Below, piece by piece: positions 2,790 through 17,555 of a stretch of DNA of 21,540 nucleotides. The notes below the pieces were generated by a model, which saw nothing but the letters and a program-made list of their open reading frames with translations, was not told where the DNA came from and ran no database searches. The DNA is taken from the IMG/VR virus record IMGVR_UViG_3300046458_000168, positions 1-21,540 of that record, one strand, 5' to 3'. Made by a program: the position numbers and the translations under genes. This stretch comes from a virus. Position 1 is the first letter of the stretch. Each line of letters opens with the position of its first letter.

Positions 2790-3065
2790 ATGAGCATCCG
2801 TATCGAGATAAATCACCAGTACGTCATTACCAGCGACCGCTATCAGTTTATTTTGCAGGAAAAGAAAACTGCTACCTCTGGAAAGAACGAAGGAAAGGAA
2901 TGGCTGGATGTTGTGGGTTACTACCCAACTATTCCTAAGCTCGTCTCAGGTCTTGCCTTGCATGACCTTTTAACGGGAAACGCAACTCGTTTCTCAGCGC
3001 TTGAAAATCAGATTGAGCGCATAGCGAAGCAATGTCTGGATGCCTTCACTTCAAATGGCCGTTGA
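2790..3065 (+). CDS. DUF5405 family early phage protein
   Basis: A 91-residue protein of unknown function. The sequence MSIRIEI..YVITSD.YQFIL.EKK followed by GKEWL.VVGYYP and LVSGL..HDLLTG is the pattern I recognise from proteins annotated DUF5405 just upstream of gene A in P2-like phages. An AGGA ribosome site precedes the ATG. Its last 11 bases overlap the start of A, so A translation is probably coupled to it. No catalytic motif, signal peptide or membrane segment is visible. Confidence 0.82.
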   Translation: MSIRIEINHQYVITSDRYQFILQEKKTATSGKNEGKEWLDVVGYYPTIPKLVSGLALHDLLTGNATRFSALENQIERIAKQCLDAFTSNGR

Positions 3066-5142
3066 ACCTCGGGGGCGTATTGCCCCCTCGCCACCGCCTC
3101 CGTTCTCGAAACACACCGATGATACATTCGTCGGTGCTTACCCCTGGAATGCACCACGCTCTGCAATTGGCCGTGACAGACCCCTTACACGTGGCGAATT
3201 CCGTCAGGTGCAAGGCGTTTTAGGCAAAGTTAATCGCCTGCCATATGTTTTAAAAACGTTGTTTAACTCCCGGTATGACTTCATCCGTCGTACTAAAAGC
3301 CCACTTCATGGTTTCTATTTCCTCAAGAACACCGTAGAGCAAAGGGTGGGGCCGCGTCTTGAGCGGGTGAATCAGCTAAACGGAATGAACGAGACGGCAT
3401 CGCTTCTCTTCATGAGCGAGCGTGAAAGCTATTCACGTTTAGCGGGTATGAGTGACAAGGCACTCAAAAAATTTGCCGCCCGTATCGCATCGCAGCTCTA
3501 TGTCGCTTACGAGGAACTTAGCGACGCATGGGCAGATGCTCACGGCGGTAAAGAGACCCTTTTCACAGATGAAGCGCAGGCGCACTTATATGGTCACGTT
3601 GCCGGTGCAGCTCGCGCATTCAACATCACCCCGATGTTCTGGAAGAAATACCGCAAAGGACAAATCACGATCCGCCAGGCATTTTCCGCTATCGCTCGTC
3701 TGATTAACGATGAATGGTGGATTAACCAGTTTAAGGCGCAGCGTATGCGCTGGCACGAGGCCTTGCTGATTGCTGCCGGAGAGGTGAACAAAGACCGCTC
3801 CCCATACGCCAGCAAAACGGCGATCCGCGACGTTCATTCTCGCCGCCTGTCTAATCTCGAATACCTCAAATCATGCGAGCTGGAAAACAAAGTAACCGGC
3901 GAACGCATCGATCTCATCAGCAAAGTCATGGGCAGTATTTCAAACCCCGAAATTCGTCGTATGGAACTGATGAACACTATCGCCGGGATTGAGCGCTATG
4001 CGGCCGGTCAGGGTGACGTCGGGATGTTTATCACTATCACCACGCCATCGAAGTATCACCCGACGCGTCAGGTTGGAAAGGGCGATAAAAAAACAGTGCA
4101 ACTCAATCACGGATGGAATGAAACCGCCTTTACGCCTAAGGATGGACAGCGATATTTGTGCCGCATCTGGAGCCTGATGCGCACAGCTTTTAAAGATAAC
4201 GATCTGCATGTCTACGGAATGCGCGTTGTTGAGCCGCATCATGACGGAACACCACACTGGCACATGATGCTATTTTGCAAACCAGAGCAGCGCAAACAGA
4301 TCACAGAAATCATGCGCCGGTATGCCTTAAAAGAAGACGGCGATGAAAAGGGTGCAGCAGCACAGCGCTTTGAAGCGAAGCACCTCAATCAAGGTGGAGC
4401 AGCCGGTTACATCGCAAAATACATTGCGAAGAATATCGACGGTTACGCGCTCGATGGTCAGGTCGATCACGACACCGGCAAGCCTCTCGCCGATACAGCC
4501 GCAGCTGTAACCGCATGGGCTTCTACGTGGCGAATCCCGCAATTCAAATCGATTGGCCTGCCGACGATGGGCGCATATCGCGAGCTGCGCAAACTGCCTC
4601 GTGGGGTGAGCATTGCTGATGAATTCGATGAGCGTGTCGAGGCGACAAGAGCTGCAGCTGATGAAGGTGGGTTTGACCTGTATATCGCAGCGCAGGGTGG
4701 GGCGAATGTTCCACGTGATAGCCAGACCGTCCGTGTGGCTCGTAACGTGACTGACGAGGTCAACGCCTACGAAGAGGATATAGAGAGAGTCGTGGGCATC
4801 TACGCCCCGCACTTGGGCTCTGAGCTGGTACGTGTTACCCGTACAGCCGACTGGCGCATCGTTCCAAAGCTCTTGGCCGTTGAGCCTTTGACTTTAAAAA
4901 GCGGCATTGCCGCGCCTCGGAGTCCTGTCAATAACTGTGGAAAGCTCACTGGCGATGGCGATCCAGTTATGACAGCTACACCGACTGAGCAAGCCGCAGC
5001 GGTGTTAAATCTGATTGATAGAGGGGTCATCGGCTGCGATGAGCCCGACGTTATGAGGATGCTCTGGGCTGCCTCAAAAGACGGCGAGCCTTCCAAAAAC
5101 CGTCAGCAAAGAAATGCGGCTCCGCTCAAACTAGGGGAATGA
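3055..5142 (+). CDS. A: Replication initiator A: HUH rolling-circle endonuclease, short C-terminus
   Basis: A nicks one strand at ori and starts rolling-circle replication by covalent attachment to the 5' end. The product is 695 residues. The metal-binding HUH motif is H401-W-H403 in DGTPHWHMMLF, and the catalytic tyrosine pair is Y452 and Y456 in AGYIAKYIAKNIDGY, spaced exactly as Y450/Y454 of P2 A. The N-terminal two-fifths and the NHGWNE...QRYLCRIW region are close to P2. The start at 3055 (MAVEPRG) matches P2 (MAVKASG) and overlaps DUF5405; an ATG at 3040 is in frame but unsupported. The C-terminus stops at RQQRNAAPLKLGE, where P2 A (about 760 residues) continues for about 65 more residues. 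The break coincides with the AT-rich cargo. The catalytic region is intact, so function is probably kept. Confidence 0.95.
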   Translation: MAVEPRGRIAPSPPPPFSKHTDDTFVGAYPWNAPRSAIGRDRPLTRGEFRQVQGVLGKVNRLPYVLKTLFNSRYDFIRRTKSPLHGFYFLKNTVEQRVGPRLERVNQLNGMNETASLLFMSERESYSRLAGMSDKALKKFAARIASQLYVAYEELSDAWADAHGGKETLFTDEAQAHLYGHVAGAARAFNITPMFWKKYRKGQITIRQAFSAIARLINDEWWINQFKAQRMRWHEALLIAAGEVNKDRSPYASKTAIRDVHSRRLSNLEYLKSCELENKVTGERIDLISKVMGSISNPEIRRMELMNTIAGIERYAAGQGDVGMFITITTPSKYHPTRQVGKGDKKTVQLNHGWNETAFTPKDGQRYLCRIWSLMRTAFKDNDLHVYGMRVVEPHHDGTPHWHMMLFCKPEQRKQITEIMRRYALKEDGDEKGAAAQRFEAKHLNQGGAAGYIAKYIAKNIDGYALDGQVDHDTGKPLADTAAAVTAWASTWRIPQFKSIGLPTMGAYRELRKLPRGVSIADEFDERVEATRAAADEGGFDLYIAAQGGANVPRDSQTVRVARNVTDEVNAYEEDIERVVGIYAPHLGSELVRVTRTADWRIVPKLLAVEPLTLKSGIAAPRSPVNNCGKLTGDGDPVMTATPTEQAAAVLNLIDRGVIGCDEPDVMRMLWAASKDGEPSKNRQQRNAAPLKLGE
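4912..4931 (+). other. ori: P2-type replication origin (A nick site) inside gene A
   Basis: The run GCGCCTCGGAGTCCTGTCAA is, as I remember it, the same as the region cut by P2 A protein, which also lies inside the A gene. Here it encodes the conserved AAPRSPVN segment. A cis-acting initiator that nicks within its own gene is characteristic of P2. The identity rests on memory of the P2 sequence. Confidence 0.72.
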
Positions 5143-5240
5143 TTATTTAGTAATCTTACAATAAAATTGAGTCTATTGATCAATGAATTGGGAGTACTTA
5201 CATTAGTAGTTATTGTCTATTAGACATAGCCTGATGAATA

Positions 5241-5263
5241 AAGCGGTAGATTTCCTACCGCTT
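5241..5263. terminator. Bidirectional hairpin between A and the HEPN gene
   Basis: AAGCGGTAG (5241-5249) pairs perfectly with CTACCGCTT (5255-5263) around a 5-base loop. It sits between two convergent gene ends (A stop at 5142 and HEPN stop at 5270) and lies 6 bases past the HEPN stop. There is a partial T-run on the plus side and a weak one on the minus side. It probably ends both transcripts and isolates the cargo from the early operon. Confidence 0.75.
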
Positions 5264-5269
5264 CAGATT

Positions 5270-6055
5270 TTAGTTATGACATAACTCTGAGCAAATAATT
5301 AAAAGAAAAGAAAGTTGCAATATCATAGCCTTATCTTTAAGTTCGATTAAGGTATTGATATCAATGACATTATTAAAATCATTTCCATGGGCGATTGTGT
5401 GTCGCTTCATATTTAAATCATCAAGAAAGGTTTGCCATAATGTTCGACCTTTGTATTTTTTCGATTCTGTCCCATAGGGTTCTTTGCCCACTTGATAAGG
5501 AAAATTGATAACCATTCTTTTTATTTTTTTTGATGCTATTGGGAGGATTCTTTTAATTCTTGGGGATGTCATTGAGAAAACCTCATCGAATAAAGAACCA
5601 TTTAAATTTTTGAATATGTCTGAAACTCCAAAACGAGATGCTATTGATTCAAGAGTATCAGGTTTTGGATTTCTGTTTTTATTAAAGGTAAATGCTTCAT
5701 GAGTGATTTTAAAGTCACTAGATCTTTCTAAATCTGAGATGAGAGTTTTTATTCTCTCATGATAATTGGGAAAAGCAGTTTCATCAAAACCTAAGTGTCT
5801 TTTGCAATAAGTTATCTTTACTGCGTTTGGCAAGTTTTTAAACTCAACCGATGAATAATCACTAATTATATTTTTTGCAGCACCTTTAATGAACCCTTCC
5901 ATATGAGCAACTATGAGAATAGTTATTGAACGACAAAGAACATTGTATAGTTCAGTATTAGATGTTTCTACTCTGATAGCTTCTTGAGCTAGTATGTCAA
6001 TTTCTTTCCATTGAAGATCTACAGTATTTAGATAATCTGCAATGAACGTTGCCAT
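5270..6055 (-). CDS. HEPN-domain protein (MAE_28990/MAE_18760-like), putative RNase of a defence pair
   Basis: A 261-residue, AT-rich protein. The C-terminal part carries RHTIAHGND (R218, H223), the R-x4-H signature of HEPN ribonucleases, with helices on both sides. Near the N-terminus, ITILIVAHMEGFIKGAAKN (about 44-62) matches the helix typical of MAE_28990/MAE_18760-type HEPN proteins (H-x-E-G-F-x-K). Members of the HEPN group cut RNA in toxin-antitoxin, Abi and CRISPR systems, so this is the likely effector. Its ATG shares one base with the stop of the DUF262 gene (TAATG), so the two are almost certainly co-translated. The location, where P2 carries tin and old, suggests phage exclusion. 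The family is fairly sure from motifs; the function is inferred. Alternatively it could be a non-catalytic HEPN partner. Confidence 0.82.
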   Translation of the reverse strand: MATFIADYLNTVDLQWKEIDILAQEAIRVETSNTELYNVLCRSITILIVAHMEGFIKGAAKNIISDYSSVEFKNLPNAVKITYCKRHLGFDETAFPNYHERIKTLISDLERSSDFKITHEAFTFNKNRNPKPDTLESIASRFGVSDIFKNLNGSLFDEVFSMTSPRIKRILPIASKKIKRMVINFPYQVGKEPYGTESKKYKGRTLWQTFLDDLNMKRHTIAHGNDFNNVIDINTLIELKDKAMILQLSFLLIICSELCHN

Positions 6056-7137
6056 TAGAAAGCTCCCTTTGCTTTAGCAATCCTTGTGTTTAGCTTGGCA
6101 ACATCATTTACGCTACCTTCACAGGCAGAGAAAAATTCTGGGTCACTAAACATGTCGATAATCATATCTTCACTTACTGGTTTGTCTTTAAGGATGCTAA
6201 TTATGAATAAATGAGTTATAGCATCAAAAACTGCAGCATTAAAGTCAGACATTTTTTTAACCGTTTTACCGGTAACTCTGTACTTTGCAAATGGGATAGA
6301 TATATTGGATGCCCCAATCTTTCTAAATGTGTGAACGAATAAACGCTCCATCTTTTTTAGTGATTCATCATCTAGATCATTGAAATTACTCATTTTTGTT
6401 GTTAGGAATTGTTTGAATTTTCCTTTATAATCATCATGGCCATTTTTGAAATTAATCGCAAAAAAACGTAGGACTAATTCTTCGTCTTCCATTTTTTTCA
6501 CCCTTTTACTTTCAGGTGCTAATTTACAGGCTGTGAGAAAGTCATTATTGCAAACTAGTTTTTTTACCAAGTCTTTAAATGGTCCACGACAGGTGGCATT
6601 TCTCAGTTCTTGAGACTCTAATTTAACTGACCCTGAATTAAGGCGTTCAAAAATATCATATTTGACTTGAGGATCCACTGTGGAGTCGATTCGTAGGCAG
6701 CGAATGCTCCTTTCCTCTAATCGGCGAATCAAAAATGAAGGTAAATCCTTGTAAAAGGAACCATTTAATTTATCTAAAACCTCAAGTCCTTCCAATTGAT
6801 ATTCATTCTGAAAGAAATTATAAATGGCCGTAAGTCGTTGCTGTCCATCGATTACTGAAAATCGAGATGATTCAGTATCCACTTCAACATCCACATCAAC
6901 GTCCTGCGAGATATAAATAAATGGAATAGGGATGTTTAATATCAAGCTTTCAATAAGTCGAGATGAGTTCTCATTGCTCCAGCGATGTTTTCTCTGATAT
7001 TCGGGGTTGAGTTTAATAACATTTTTTTGTATTTTTTTGACAAGTGTTTCCAAGTCGTACTCTATAGTTTGAGTTTTTACAGTACGTTCTTTAGCTATTT
7101 GTTGAAGCTCATCAAGATTATGCTTGAGAGTAACCAT
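6055..7137 (-). CDS. DUF262 (GmrSD N-terminal/ParB-like) protein, first gene of the cargo operon
   Basis: A 360-residue protein with the clear DUF262 motif series: LNPEYQRKHRWS (43-54), the NIPIPFIYI block (68-76), VIDGQQRLTAIYNF (95-108) with the ParB-like DGQQR nucleotide-binding core, and FERLNSGSVKLESQELRNA (163-181). DUF262 domains occur in modification-dependent restriction enzymes (GmrS/BrxU type), where they bind and hydrolyse nucleotides. Here the usual C-terminal DUF1524 HNH nuclease is absent: after about residue 230 no H-N-H motif is visible. The next gene encodes a HEPN protein, so the nuclease activity may be supplied in trans. A TAAGGA ribosome site precedes the ATG. Composition is strongly AT-rich beside the GC-rich backbone, a sign of separate acquisition. 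Role as sensor or regulator is an inference. Confidence 0.88.
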   Translation of the reverse strand: MVTLKHNLDELQQIAKERTVKTQTIEYDLETLVKKIQKNVIKLNPEYQRKHRWSNENSSRLIESLILNIPIPFIYISQDVDVDVEVDTESSRFSVIDGQQRLTAIYNFFQNEYQLEGLEVLDKLNGSFYKDLPSFLIRRLEERSIRCLRIDSTVDPQVKYDIFERLNSGSVKLESQELRNATCRGPFKDLVKKLVCNNDFLTACKLAPESKRVKKMEDEELVLRFFAINFKNGHDDYKGKFKQFLTTKMSNFNDLDDESLKKMERLFVHTFRKIGASNISIPFAKYRVTGKTVKKMSDFNAAVFDAITHLFIISILKDKPVSEDMIIDMFSDPEFFSACEGSVNDVAKLNTRIAKAKGAF

Positions 7138-7186
7138 TTGGATTCCTTACTTTTGCCTAAAGGTTTAAGAGTGCTGATAATTAGAC

Positions 7187-7252
7187 ATCATAAAGCAACT
7201 TGAGCATCTTTTTAAGATGTGCGTTCATATTATGCATCAATTTGCATCAATT
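7187..7252 (-). promoter_or_regulatory. Candidate promoter and operator of the DUF262-HEPN operon
   Basis: On the minus strand TTAAAA (7215-7210) and TATGAT (7192-7187) are 17 bases apart, giving a start near 7180 and a leader of about 43 bases to the DUF262 ATG. A palindrome CATCTT-TTT-AAGATG (7205-7219) overlaps the -35. Upstream is a perfect tandem repeat, TGCATCAATT at 7233-7242 and 7243-7252. The core GCATC occurs at 7204, 7234 and 7244, spacing 30 and 10, so all copies face the same side of the helix. This looks like a controlled promoter, but no binding protein is identified. Confidence 0.42.
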
Positions 7253-7353
7253 TTTTTCTTTGAATCTCTTCCTGTGAGACAGGGAGTAACGTGGGCTTTT
7301 TCTGCAAAATTATGTCGATGCACCTGCATTAAAACCGACCCATCAAGCGGGCA

Positions 7354-7372
7354 GGCGTGGCGGGGAAAGCAT
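7354..7372. other. cos: cos site, phage 186 type
   Basis: GGCGTGGCGGGGAAAGCAT is, from memory, identical to the 19-base cohesive end of phage 186, and differs at two positions from P2 (GGCGAGGCGGGGAAAGCAC). It lies between the early-side cargo and the portal gene, exactly where P2-family cos lies. Terminase P/M cuts here to make linear DNA for packaging. Confidence 0.88.
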
Positions 7373-7529
7373 TGCGCGCTAAGTCGGTAAATGGATTAAA
7401 TCATCCGAACGTCTGAGCGCGTTTGTGCCCATCTCAAACTATTAAATCTATGGTTGCTTACGGTCATTTCTCACTACGTTGTCAGGAAGGGCTACGACAG
7501 CATTTCATGCATAAAGAATAGGGGGCACT

Positions 7530-7736
7530 ATGGCATTTAAAGAGGGTAATGTAGTTACGTTGAATTCTGGAGGTCCACCGATGACGGTTTTAGGTATCGC
7601 CAAAGATATGGGCGCTGCGTGGAATCATGTGCCGGGAGACCATGTAATTGCGAGATGGATGACTGAAAACGGGGATATCAAAACTGACGCATTTGATCCT
7701 GATACTCTCAGTTTTGCAGATCCCGACATCGATTAG
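7530..7736 (+). CDS. Small DUF2158 (YodC-like) protein
   Basis: A 68-residue acidic protein between cos and Q, convergent with Q. The beginning FKEGNVVTLNSGGPPMTVLGI matches the DUF2158 pattern (a short beta-rich domain as in E. coli YodC: G-D/N-x-V-x-L-x-S-G-G-P-x-M-T-V). The second half, VIARWMTENGDIKTDAFDPDTL, fits the rest of that domain (x-C/R-x-W-F/M). The function of DUF2158 is unknown. A strong ribosome site (AGGGGG) precedes the ATG; no convincing promoter is visible. P2 has no gene here as far as I recall, so this is an accessory gene. Confidence 0.8.
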   Translation: MAFKEGNVVTLNSGGPPMTVLGIAKDMGAAWNHVPGDHVIARWMTENGDIKTDAFDPDTLSFADPDID

Positions 7737-7784: not shown

Positions 7785-8795
7785 TTAGTCCTTATCAAGC
7801 TCGTAAGGCTTAAAGCGGATCACCTCCACTCCGACCCAGTCGTTGATCTCTTTAAATCGCTCCTGCAGCGGCGTCAGTTCGTTACGCACGAACACCCGCG
7901 CAACCTTCTCGACATCCCCTAATGAGCCGATATTCTCGGGCTTGCCGCCCATCAGCTGGAACGGCACGCGATGCGCATCGAGCAGGTCGGCGGCGCTTAC
8001 CTTTTTGATATTGAAAAAATCATCCTTCGTGGCGACTTCACTCAGCGGCACGATCTTGATGCCGTCCGGTTTCCCGTTGGGCGCGTAGAAAAACAGATTC
8101 TTAAAATTCCCGAGTCCCTTTGAATTACGCATGGCATCACGCAGCGAATCGACGTCGGTGCTGCTTTGCGCCGCGTCGGTGACGTACATGATGTACCCCG
8201 CGTGCGCGCCGTTCTGGTAATACTTGCGACGAAACAGCGTGGCGGATTCATTCAGCCAGGCGGAATTGAGTGCGCTCAGGTATTCCGGCATCCCGTAAAG
8301 CTCCTGATTGATATCAGGCTCAAGCAGATGGAACACTGAGCCGGGCGCAAATTCGTGCGGGTGGGTGAAGCTCGACACGTACCAGTAAACGCCATCCTCG
8401 ACGCCACGGCGGGTGTATTTGGCCGGGGAGGTTTCCAGTTTCAGGAGCTGGCCGGTTACGCTCATTCGCTTCTCAAGATAGCCGTTGGCAAAGACCAGAT
8501 AATCGAGCACGAGGCGGCTGAAATCCTGACGCGACAGCAGCTGGTGAGGGATGTAGGTGCTCGCCAGAATGTTACGCTTCACGTAAATCGGTGAGCTATG
8601 GTGGACGGCGGCGCGCAGGCTTTTCGCCAGCCCCGAGAAGTTGACCGGCGGCTCGTACCATTTCCCGTTATGAATACACTCGACATAGTCGAGGATGTCG
8701 CGGCGATCCATGACGGCGGAAGGCTCACCAAAGGTGAACGCCTCCATCTTTTGCGGCTTGCTGACTGCCTGCTGAGTAGTTTTTTGTTTTGCCAT
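7785..8795 (-). CDS. Q: Capsid portal protein Q
   Basis: Portal protein: a ring at one capsid vertex through which DNA enters and to which the tail is joined. The 336-residue product is close to P2 Q (344), with the conserved stretches FTFGEPSAVMDRRDILDYVE (20-39), PIYVKRNILASTYIPHQLL (70-88), LEPDINQELYGMPEYLSALN (about 169-188) and VSAADLLDAHRVPFQLMGG (about 280-298). It follows P on the minus strand with a one-base gap, so the pair is one late operon read from the P-O intergenic region. The lysine/glutamine-rich N-terminus is typical. Confidence 0.95.
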   Translation of the reverse strand: MAKQKTTQQAVSKPQKMEAFTFGEPSAVMDRRDILDYVECIHNGKWYEPPVNFSGLAKSLRAAVHHSSPIYVKRNILASTYIPHQLLSRQDFSRLVLDYLVFANGYLEKRMSVTGQLLKLETSPAKYTRRGVEDGVYWYVSSFTHPHEFAPGSVFHLLEPDINQELYGMPEYLSALNSAWLNESATLFRRKYYQNGAHAGYIMYVTDAAQSSTDVDSLRDAMRNSKGLGNFKNLFFYAPNGKPDGIKIVPLSEVATKDDFFNIKKVSAADLLDAHRVPFQLMGGKPENIGSLGDVEKVARVFVRNELTPLQERFKEINDWVGVEVIRFKPYELDKD

Positions 8796-16484: not shown

Positions 16485-17555
16485 TCATTTTGGTTTTATC
16501 GCTGATATTAGCGATGCAATTTGTTCAATGCCATCAAAGGTTGAAGGTATTTTTTCTTGGTTTGGCATTATATTGGAGAATATGACATCTTCAAACTTCA
16601 TAAGAGAGTTTGGGTTTGAGTCCTTTATTGACTTAGAGTAGTCTGCATAGCTTTGAATAAACTGACACAGGCTTTTCCTTAAATCAATTTGCAATGTTTG
16701 CGCCTTCAAGGATGTATGGTTATTAAGTGCCACTCTGAAGTAGTAAATCAAAATTAAAGTGAGGGAAAATAATGGGATAAATGTAATTAATTTATTTAAT
16801 GAGCTGGCTTCATTTGTTTTAAGGACTGTATAGATGATCTCAATAATCAAAGGGCAAGGGATTGCAATAGCTAGTGCAACCAAAAGTAATCTTGACCAAA
16901 AAATCTCCCTGCCTTTTTGATCACCTAATAATTTGAACCCTTCGTACAACCCAACGAAGTTAAAAGCGCTTTGATACCCTTCTAATTTTGATTTTATCTC
17001 ATTAATGTTATTTTCTTTTTCTTCAATGTACATCTTCCAATTAGCCGCAAAATCTTTTGCCGATCTAACATTGTTCATGAAATCTCTGAATGTATGAATT
17101 TCATCACCATTAAAAGTTGCTCTAATTAGATTAAGAGGCATCTCACGCAGAGCATAATCTATCTGCCCCTTGCTTCTGTCATCAAACTCATTATATCGAT
17201 ATATGCCAAAGTTTTTTATTTCTTTAATGGTGTTGAAGGGGGCGTCTAAGGCTTCATCAAAAATTGTTGGTTCAACGCAGAAACGAAAGCAAGACGTAAA
17301 AATGATGTTTAAAGATTGCGTGGTTAATAACTTATCCTCTAACTCGCTTGCAAATACATCTCCGATATTTTCAATGTTAAATTCCGCTTTTTCATCCCAC
17401 TCCTCGGATTTTTTTAAAAATATGTCAAAGATGCTAACTAGCAAAGCGTTTCTTGTTTTCTCAAATTCACTAGTTATCTCTAGCGATTCTAAAGTTTTCA
17501 TATAATCGCGCATCAACTGCTGTATGCGTGGTGTAGAAAAAAATTTAGTGGTCAT
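16485..17555 (-). CDS. AT-rich accessory membrane protein, unknown function, putative phage-exclusion cargo
   Basis: A 356-residue protein I do not recognise. Residues 1-220 are hydrophilic and mostly helical with no catalytic motif I can name; 176-195 could form a coiled coil. Two TM segments follow, about 222-245 (RLLLVALAIAIPCPLIIEII) and 256-274 (LITFIPLFSLTLILIYYF), separated by a 10-residue loop, then about 80 soluble residues. Both large domains would therefore lie on the same side of the membrane, presumably in the cytoplasm. The gene is minus-strand, AT-rich, alone, and sits between S and V, where P2 carries the small orf30. It has its own terminator. A soluble sensor on a two-TM anchor fits an abortive-infection or superinfection-exclusion protein; this is inference from context and topology only. 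Confidence 0.85.
   Translation of the reverse strand: MTTKFFSTPRIQQLMRDYMKTLESLEITSEFEKTRNALLVSIFDIFLKKSEEWDEKAEFNIENIGDVFASELEDKLLTTQSLNIIFTSCFRFCVEPTIFDEALDAPFNTIKEIKNFGIYRYNEFDDRSKGQIDYALREMPLNLIRATFNGDEIHTFRDFMNNVRSAKDFAANWKMYIEEKENNINEIKSKLEGYQSAFNFVGLYEGFKLLGDQKGREIFWSRLLLVALAIAIPCPLIIEIIYTVLKTNEASSLNKLITFIPLFSLTLILIYYFRVALNNHTSLKAQTLQIDLRKSLCQFIQSYADYSKSIKDSNPNSLMKFEDVIFSNIMPNQEKIPSTFDGIEQIASLISAIKPK

Follow-up and report, generated by a model that had tools for sequence, protein, structure and literature searches.

Through a DG-QR pocket, DUF262 domains bind NTPs, hydrolyse them and couple the recognition of infection to a nuclease, as in GmrSD, BrxU and SspE (PMC10952713). HEPN proteins are generally known as an RNase family acting through an R-x4-6-H motif, and operons that combine them with ParB-fold genes were noted in 2013 (PMC3710099). 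The two families are combined in PD-T4-2 (Vassallo et al. 2022), in which a HEPN-motif gene comes after the DUF262 gene (PMC10952713) and which blocks T4 both in its native strain and in E. coli K-12 (PMC9519451).

Here we describe a DUF262-HEPN gene pair in a viral sequence of 21,540 nucleotides (IMG/VR record IMGVR_UViG_3300046458_000168, positions 1 to 21,540; hereafter the window). The pair is best read as an unnamed lineage of a broad DUF262-HEPN class. We consider it probable (roughly 0.72) that it is an intact anti-phage cassette of a P2-like temperate phage, in which a DUF262 NTP-binding sensor or gate releases a HEPN RNase. The features of the locus are collected in Table 1.

Table 1. 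Features of the DUF262-HEPN locus and its P2-like surroundings (window coordinates).
Feature	Position	Strand	Basis and remarks
P2 replication endonuclease A, left flank	3040-5142	+	PF05840, 8.2e-114
Hairpin, 11-bp stem, just 3' of HEPN stop; possible transcript end	5239-5265	-	Fold z = -3.7, 0/200 shuffles equally stable
HEPN gene	5270-6055	-	261 aa; R218-x4-H223; conserved E53; predicted RNase effector
TAATG, DUF262 stop and HEPN start sharing one base	6053-6057	-	From sequence
DUF262 (GmrSD_N, ParB/Srx-like) gene	6055-7137	-	360 aa; VIDGQQR at residues 95-101; predicted sensor/NTPase subunit
Promoter-like match TTAAAA-17-TATGAT, upstream of DUF262 gene	7187-7215	-	9/12 consensus
Cargo slot, interval unshared with P2-like phages of other cargo	5114-7317		blastn breakpoints against L137, L138, L139, L072, L080 and others; low GC
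Conserved 62-base block, right border of slot	7318-7379		85-94% identity in all compared P2-like loci except L140
P2 portal protein (gpQ), right flank	7785-8795	-	phrog_68, 4.1e-171

The upstream protein matches the DUF262 family (PF03235, E 4.9e-28), and its downstream neighbour matches PF18735 (E 2.7e-18, 67 bits against a cut-off of 28.4) and also PF18737 (E 2e-7). The latter carries RHTIAH at residues 218-223 and so shows both the profile of the HEPN RNase superfamily and its R-x4-6-H motif. H223 is invariant and E53 nearly so in the alignment of HEPN partners, while D97, G98, Q100 and R101 are invariant in a 21-row alignment of DUF262 proteins, in which the third position of DGxQR varies and DGSQR is the commonest form. 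These alignments point to D97, Q100 and R101 of the DUF262 protein, and H223 and R218 of the HEPN protein, as the probably informative residues; Q99, previously proposed for mutation, is a poor target because DGxQR varies at that residue. AlphaFold models of both proteins (pLDDT 51 and 52, from alignments containing just 5-6 close relatives) were too poor to show either fold, and the HEPN assignment therefore rests on the profile matches and the motif. A fold search with the low-confidence HEPN model returned nothing at E < 1 and carries no weight here, and sequence searches of the PDB returned no HEPN relative.

All solved structures that the profile search returned are DUF262 proteins (e.g. 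7p9k), which, together with the DGQQR motif, would suit a type IV restriction system cutting modified phage DNA in the manner of GmrSD or BrxU. We regard this as quite improbable: neither protein contains a DUF1524/HNH nuclease domain (a Pfam search gave no match to the DUF1524, or His-Me finger, nuclease in either), and the sole nuclease-type domain present is HEPN, an RNase family.

The GC content of the gene pair is 31-37%, against 50-57% in the flanking backbone. The TAATG overlap makes translational coupling of the two genes likely, and the intact closest relatives have an identical one-base DUF262/HEPN overlap. A reading made from the sequence alone (the sequence-only reading) had described an AT-rich minus-strand operon of a DUF262 and a HEPN gene with a start-stop overlap, the VIDGQQR and RHTIAH motifs, a hairpin end and a promoter candidate of its own. 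The genes, their overlap, composition and motifs were confirmed, as was the hairpin, although its U-tract is weak and it is absent from the terminator-scan list. The promoter candidate does not stand out: 12 sites of this kind were found against 9.7 in shuffled sequences, no better than chance.

The same reading correctly placed the pair between A and cos of a P2-like genome. Homology to the P2-like backbone ends at about 5113 and returns at the conserved 62-base block, which we take to be the P2-type cos region, with the portal matched from 7810 (blastn). As a variable insert between gpA and cos/portal, the DUF262-HEPN pair is P2 A-cos cargo, and its slot is the tin/old hotspot described previously (PMC9122126, PMC9519451). 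In related P2-like phages and prophages this slot holds other defence-like cargo (PMC9122126); among those compared here it contains a reverse transcriptase with an ATP-dependent nuclease, a large ATPase, or a DUF262-HEPN pair in the opposite orientation. Enterobacter phage ENT4 encodes a 742-aa ATPase in the slot (L139:3259-5487, minus strand). This protein presumably resembles those of the PrrC/RloC type.

Several other features of the window were recorded. Between the cos block and the portal, on the opposite side of cos from the cargo, lies a 68-aa DUF2158 ORF (PF09926, 1.5e-13; 7530-7736, plus strand). No tRNA gene that could serve as an integration cue is found in the window. A second AT-rich cargo gene (16485-17555, minus strand, 356 aa, 34% GC) lies between P2 S and V; its match is to phrog_9373 (2.8e-82), a family of unknown function, without a significant Pfam or PADLOC match, and a 40% identical counterpart occupies the S-V interval of a Yersinia P2-like phage. 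It is a candidate for an undescribed defence or moron gene.

The window pair resembles PD-T4-2 in gene order, a DUF262 gene with a HEPN-type gene next to it on its downstream side, and its DUF262 protein is 32% identical to the PD-T4-2 A protein over 246 aa. A true PD-T4-2 locus, found through the PADLOC B model, encodes a 362-aa DUF262 protein and, after it, a protein of 167 aa with RNRVAH, against 261 aa for the HEPN protein of the window. This true member scores 527 bits on the A model and 209 bits on the B, and matches three PD-T4-2_B models; its B protein has a sub-threshold match to PF18735. The window DUF262 protein scores 138 bits on PD-T4-2_A (E 1.3e-40), below its score on the model for NsnA of the Menshen system. 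The window HEPN protein has no match to the PADLOC PD-T4-2_B models at E up to 1, and its hhalign comparison with the true PD-T4-2_B is not significant (E 0.23), aligning around the motif only. In a quick tree, whose long branches are to be placed with caution, the window is one of the nine members of a starred clade; the PD-T4-2 row sits on a long branch in another part of the tree, and the three Menshen sequences group in a separate starred clade. We conclude that the pair is PD-T4-2-like in architecture but, with no B model match, not a member by the family-model test. Distant E. coli and Salmonella DUF262-HEPN pairs considered as PD-T4-2 were likewise rejected, having no PD-T4-2 B model match.

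The preference for NsnA (2.6e-76, 255 bits, versus 138 for PD-T4-2_A) might suggest a Menshen-type system (NsnABC) that has lost or swapped its other subunits, and the DUF262 subunits of the two are indeed homologous (30% over 254 aa). A true Menshen NsnA, however, scores 362 bits, and NsnA outranks PD-T4-2_A in every DUF262-HEPN pair tested except the true PD-T4-2, so that the NsnA match is a general DUF262 signal. Menshen has the ATPase NsnB and NsnC as partners, as in the real Menshen locus L022; the window pair adjoins neither and has HEPN downstream instead, and the Menshen trio in its separate clade has the ATPase partner. A Menshen origin is accordingly very remote.

The two-gene arrangement is widespread. 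In a scan of viral contigs with the DUF262 alignment, HEPN lies directly downstream of DUF262 in 67 of the 80 best loci by a strict rule and in a further six by inspection (73/80); in these six the DUF262 ORF was called too long and runs >60 bp into the HEPN ORF, and the background control had classed them as non-adjacent although HEPN is immediately downstream. The sequence-only reading had named a lack of co-occurrence of the two families as what would refute it, and the outcome was strongly the reverse. Of the 80 loci, 22 occupy the interval from P2 gpA to portal and fall into 10 groups at 90% identity and 5 at 50%; some of the 80 are near-copies, which makes the independent cases fewer. 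The arrangement recurs in genomes and plasmids, where 24 of the 25 scanned non-Menshen partners match PF18735. Pairs L013 and L024, which occupy the P2 slot in E. coli phages, adjoin a convergent DNA cytosine methyltransferase gene, whose product may protect the phage or may be separate cargo. In a 59-kb viral contig (L060:1827-4498), a further DUF262 gene and a gene for an AAA_21/AbiEii-type ATPase come before the pair, so that two DUF262-based units adjoin.

The close relatives have DUF262 proteins of 76-84% identity (inner) and 57-59% (two outer), with HEPN proteins of 66-82%. They occur in two other P2-like contigs (in the same slot) and in further phage contigs; a conjugative Klebsiella aerogenes plasmid also carries the pair, as do chromosomes of Enterobacter and Serratia. 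All intact copies have the HEPN gene right behind DUF262; the Serratia copy is interrupted by stop codons. Scanning genomes with the HEPN sequence by itself returned no relative, and scanning with an alignment returned two; no DNA-level match to the pair was found among the complete E. coli genomes in the collection.

Distances between DUF262 proteins and between their HEPN partners are strongly correlated across 90 pairs (Mantel r 0.94, the best of 999 permutations giving 0.14), with r 0.86 for pairs below 50% identity. R-x4-6-H is present within the C-terminal half of all 90 HEPN partners. Purifying selection on both genes is strong, with dN/dS of 0.03-0.07 in the measurable pairs and saturated synonymous sites elsewhere. 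Co-occurrence, co-variation and purifying selection establish that the two proteins form a functional unit, but taken alone they do not demonstrate defence.

Such a unit might also be an addiction pair of the toxin-antitoxin kind, in which DUF262 neutralises a constitutively toxic HEPN RNase, retention of the element is the main benefit and phage defence is secondary. The presence of DUF262-HEPN on a conjugative plasmid and in non-P2 phage contigs would fit this, and HEPN toxins with a partner are common (e.g. HEPN/MNT; PMC7641770). We nevertheless give addiction only a small chance. The DUF262 gene is the upstream one and encodes a 360-aa NTPase-type protein, neither a small antitoxin nor an MNT; by Pfam the MNT nucleotidyltransferase partner of HEPN/MNT toxin-antitoxin pairs is absent, its place being taken by DUF262. 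Moreover, the best tested DUF262 relatives (GmrSD, BrxU, SspE, PD-T4-2, Menshen and Dazbog) are all defence systems (PMC10952713), and the slot is known for defence cargo.

The preferred reading, an anti-phage cassette, draws its predicted defence role from an architecture shared with PD-T4-2, which blocks T4 (PMC9519451); nucleotide binding, RNase activity and complex formation are likewise predicted from the families. The DUF262 protein would bind NTP via its DG(Q)QR pocket and act as sensor and gatekeeper, and the HEPN protein would be the effector RNase, active as a dimer via R-x4-H. In the lysogen, the pair would be expressed at a low level and kept inactive as a complex. A trigger from a superinfecting phage (a phage protein or a nucleic acid, the latter perhaps modified DNA) would alter the state of DUF262 and free HEPN, which would then cut RNA and stop the infection, probably by abortive infection. 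In the open-licence literature we found no report of an experimental test of this lineage.

With the window pair, a widespread two-gene architecture gains a lineage that is clean and intact, and the interest lies in the breadth of a class missed by PADLOC models rather than in the single locus: the tested models give a generic NsnA match for DUF262 and miss the HEPN partner. Because it recurs as a unit not only in P2 slots but also in other phages, on a plasmid and in chromosomes, the pair is tractable for study, and a DUF262-HEPN system could show what DUF262 senses when the effector is a predicted RNase and not a DNase.

Stand-alone DUF262 proteins of ~175 aa are encoded by the virulent T4-like phages Margaery (Citrobacter phage; L143:2462-2989) and RB49 (L144:1501-2019), with no HEPN gene annotated alongside. 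Their match to the window sensor is confined to its N-terminal domain (29% over 165 aa), with DGKQR kept in Margaery, and they are possibly decoys. A wider proposal, to which we allow a slim chance, is that DUF262-HEPN constitutes one large, mostly unnamed defence class with PD-T4-2 as a single outlying branch, and that RB49, Phi1, JSE and Margaery counter it with ~175-aa DUF262 N-domain decoys or dominant-negative subunits.

The sequence-only reading was right in kind as to domains, operon and A-cos cargo, and under-informed on precedent. Its suggestion that the pair may be undescribed holds in part: the hotspot and the DUF262-HEPN architecture are already known, the latter having been tested as PD-T4-2, with operons of HEPN and ParB-fold genes noted in 2013, and what is new is a lineage outside the PADLOC PD-T4-2 B models. 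With GmrSD, BrxU and SspE the pair has in common an N-terminal DUF262 domain that contains the DG-QR pocket (PMC10952713), and differs from them in having a HEPN partner instead of the DUF1524 nuclease. With P2 tin and old it shares the A-cos slot and differs in protein families, the Pfam content of the pair being DUF262 and HEPN only. The pairs of DUF262 and MAE_28990/RiboL-PSP HEPN genes in P2-like phages (e.g. Peduovirus P24B2, E. coli 1002W03 and E. coli S42) have the same slot, gene order and two domain families; their DUF262 proteins, however, are only ~27-33% identical to that of the window and their HEPN proteins are shorter (~200-243 aa), some adjoin a cytosine methyltransferase, and S42 lies in the opposite orientation.
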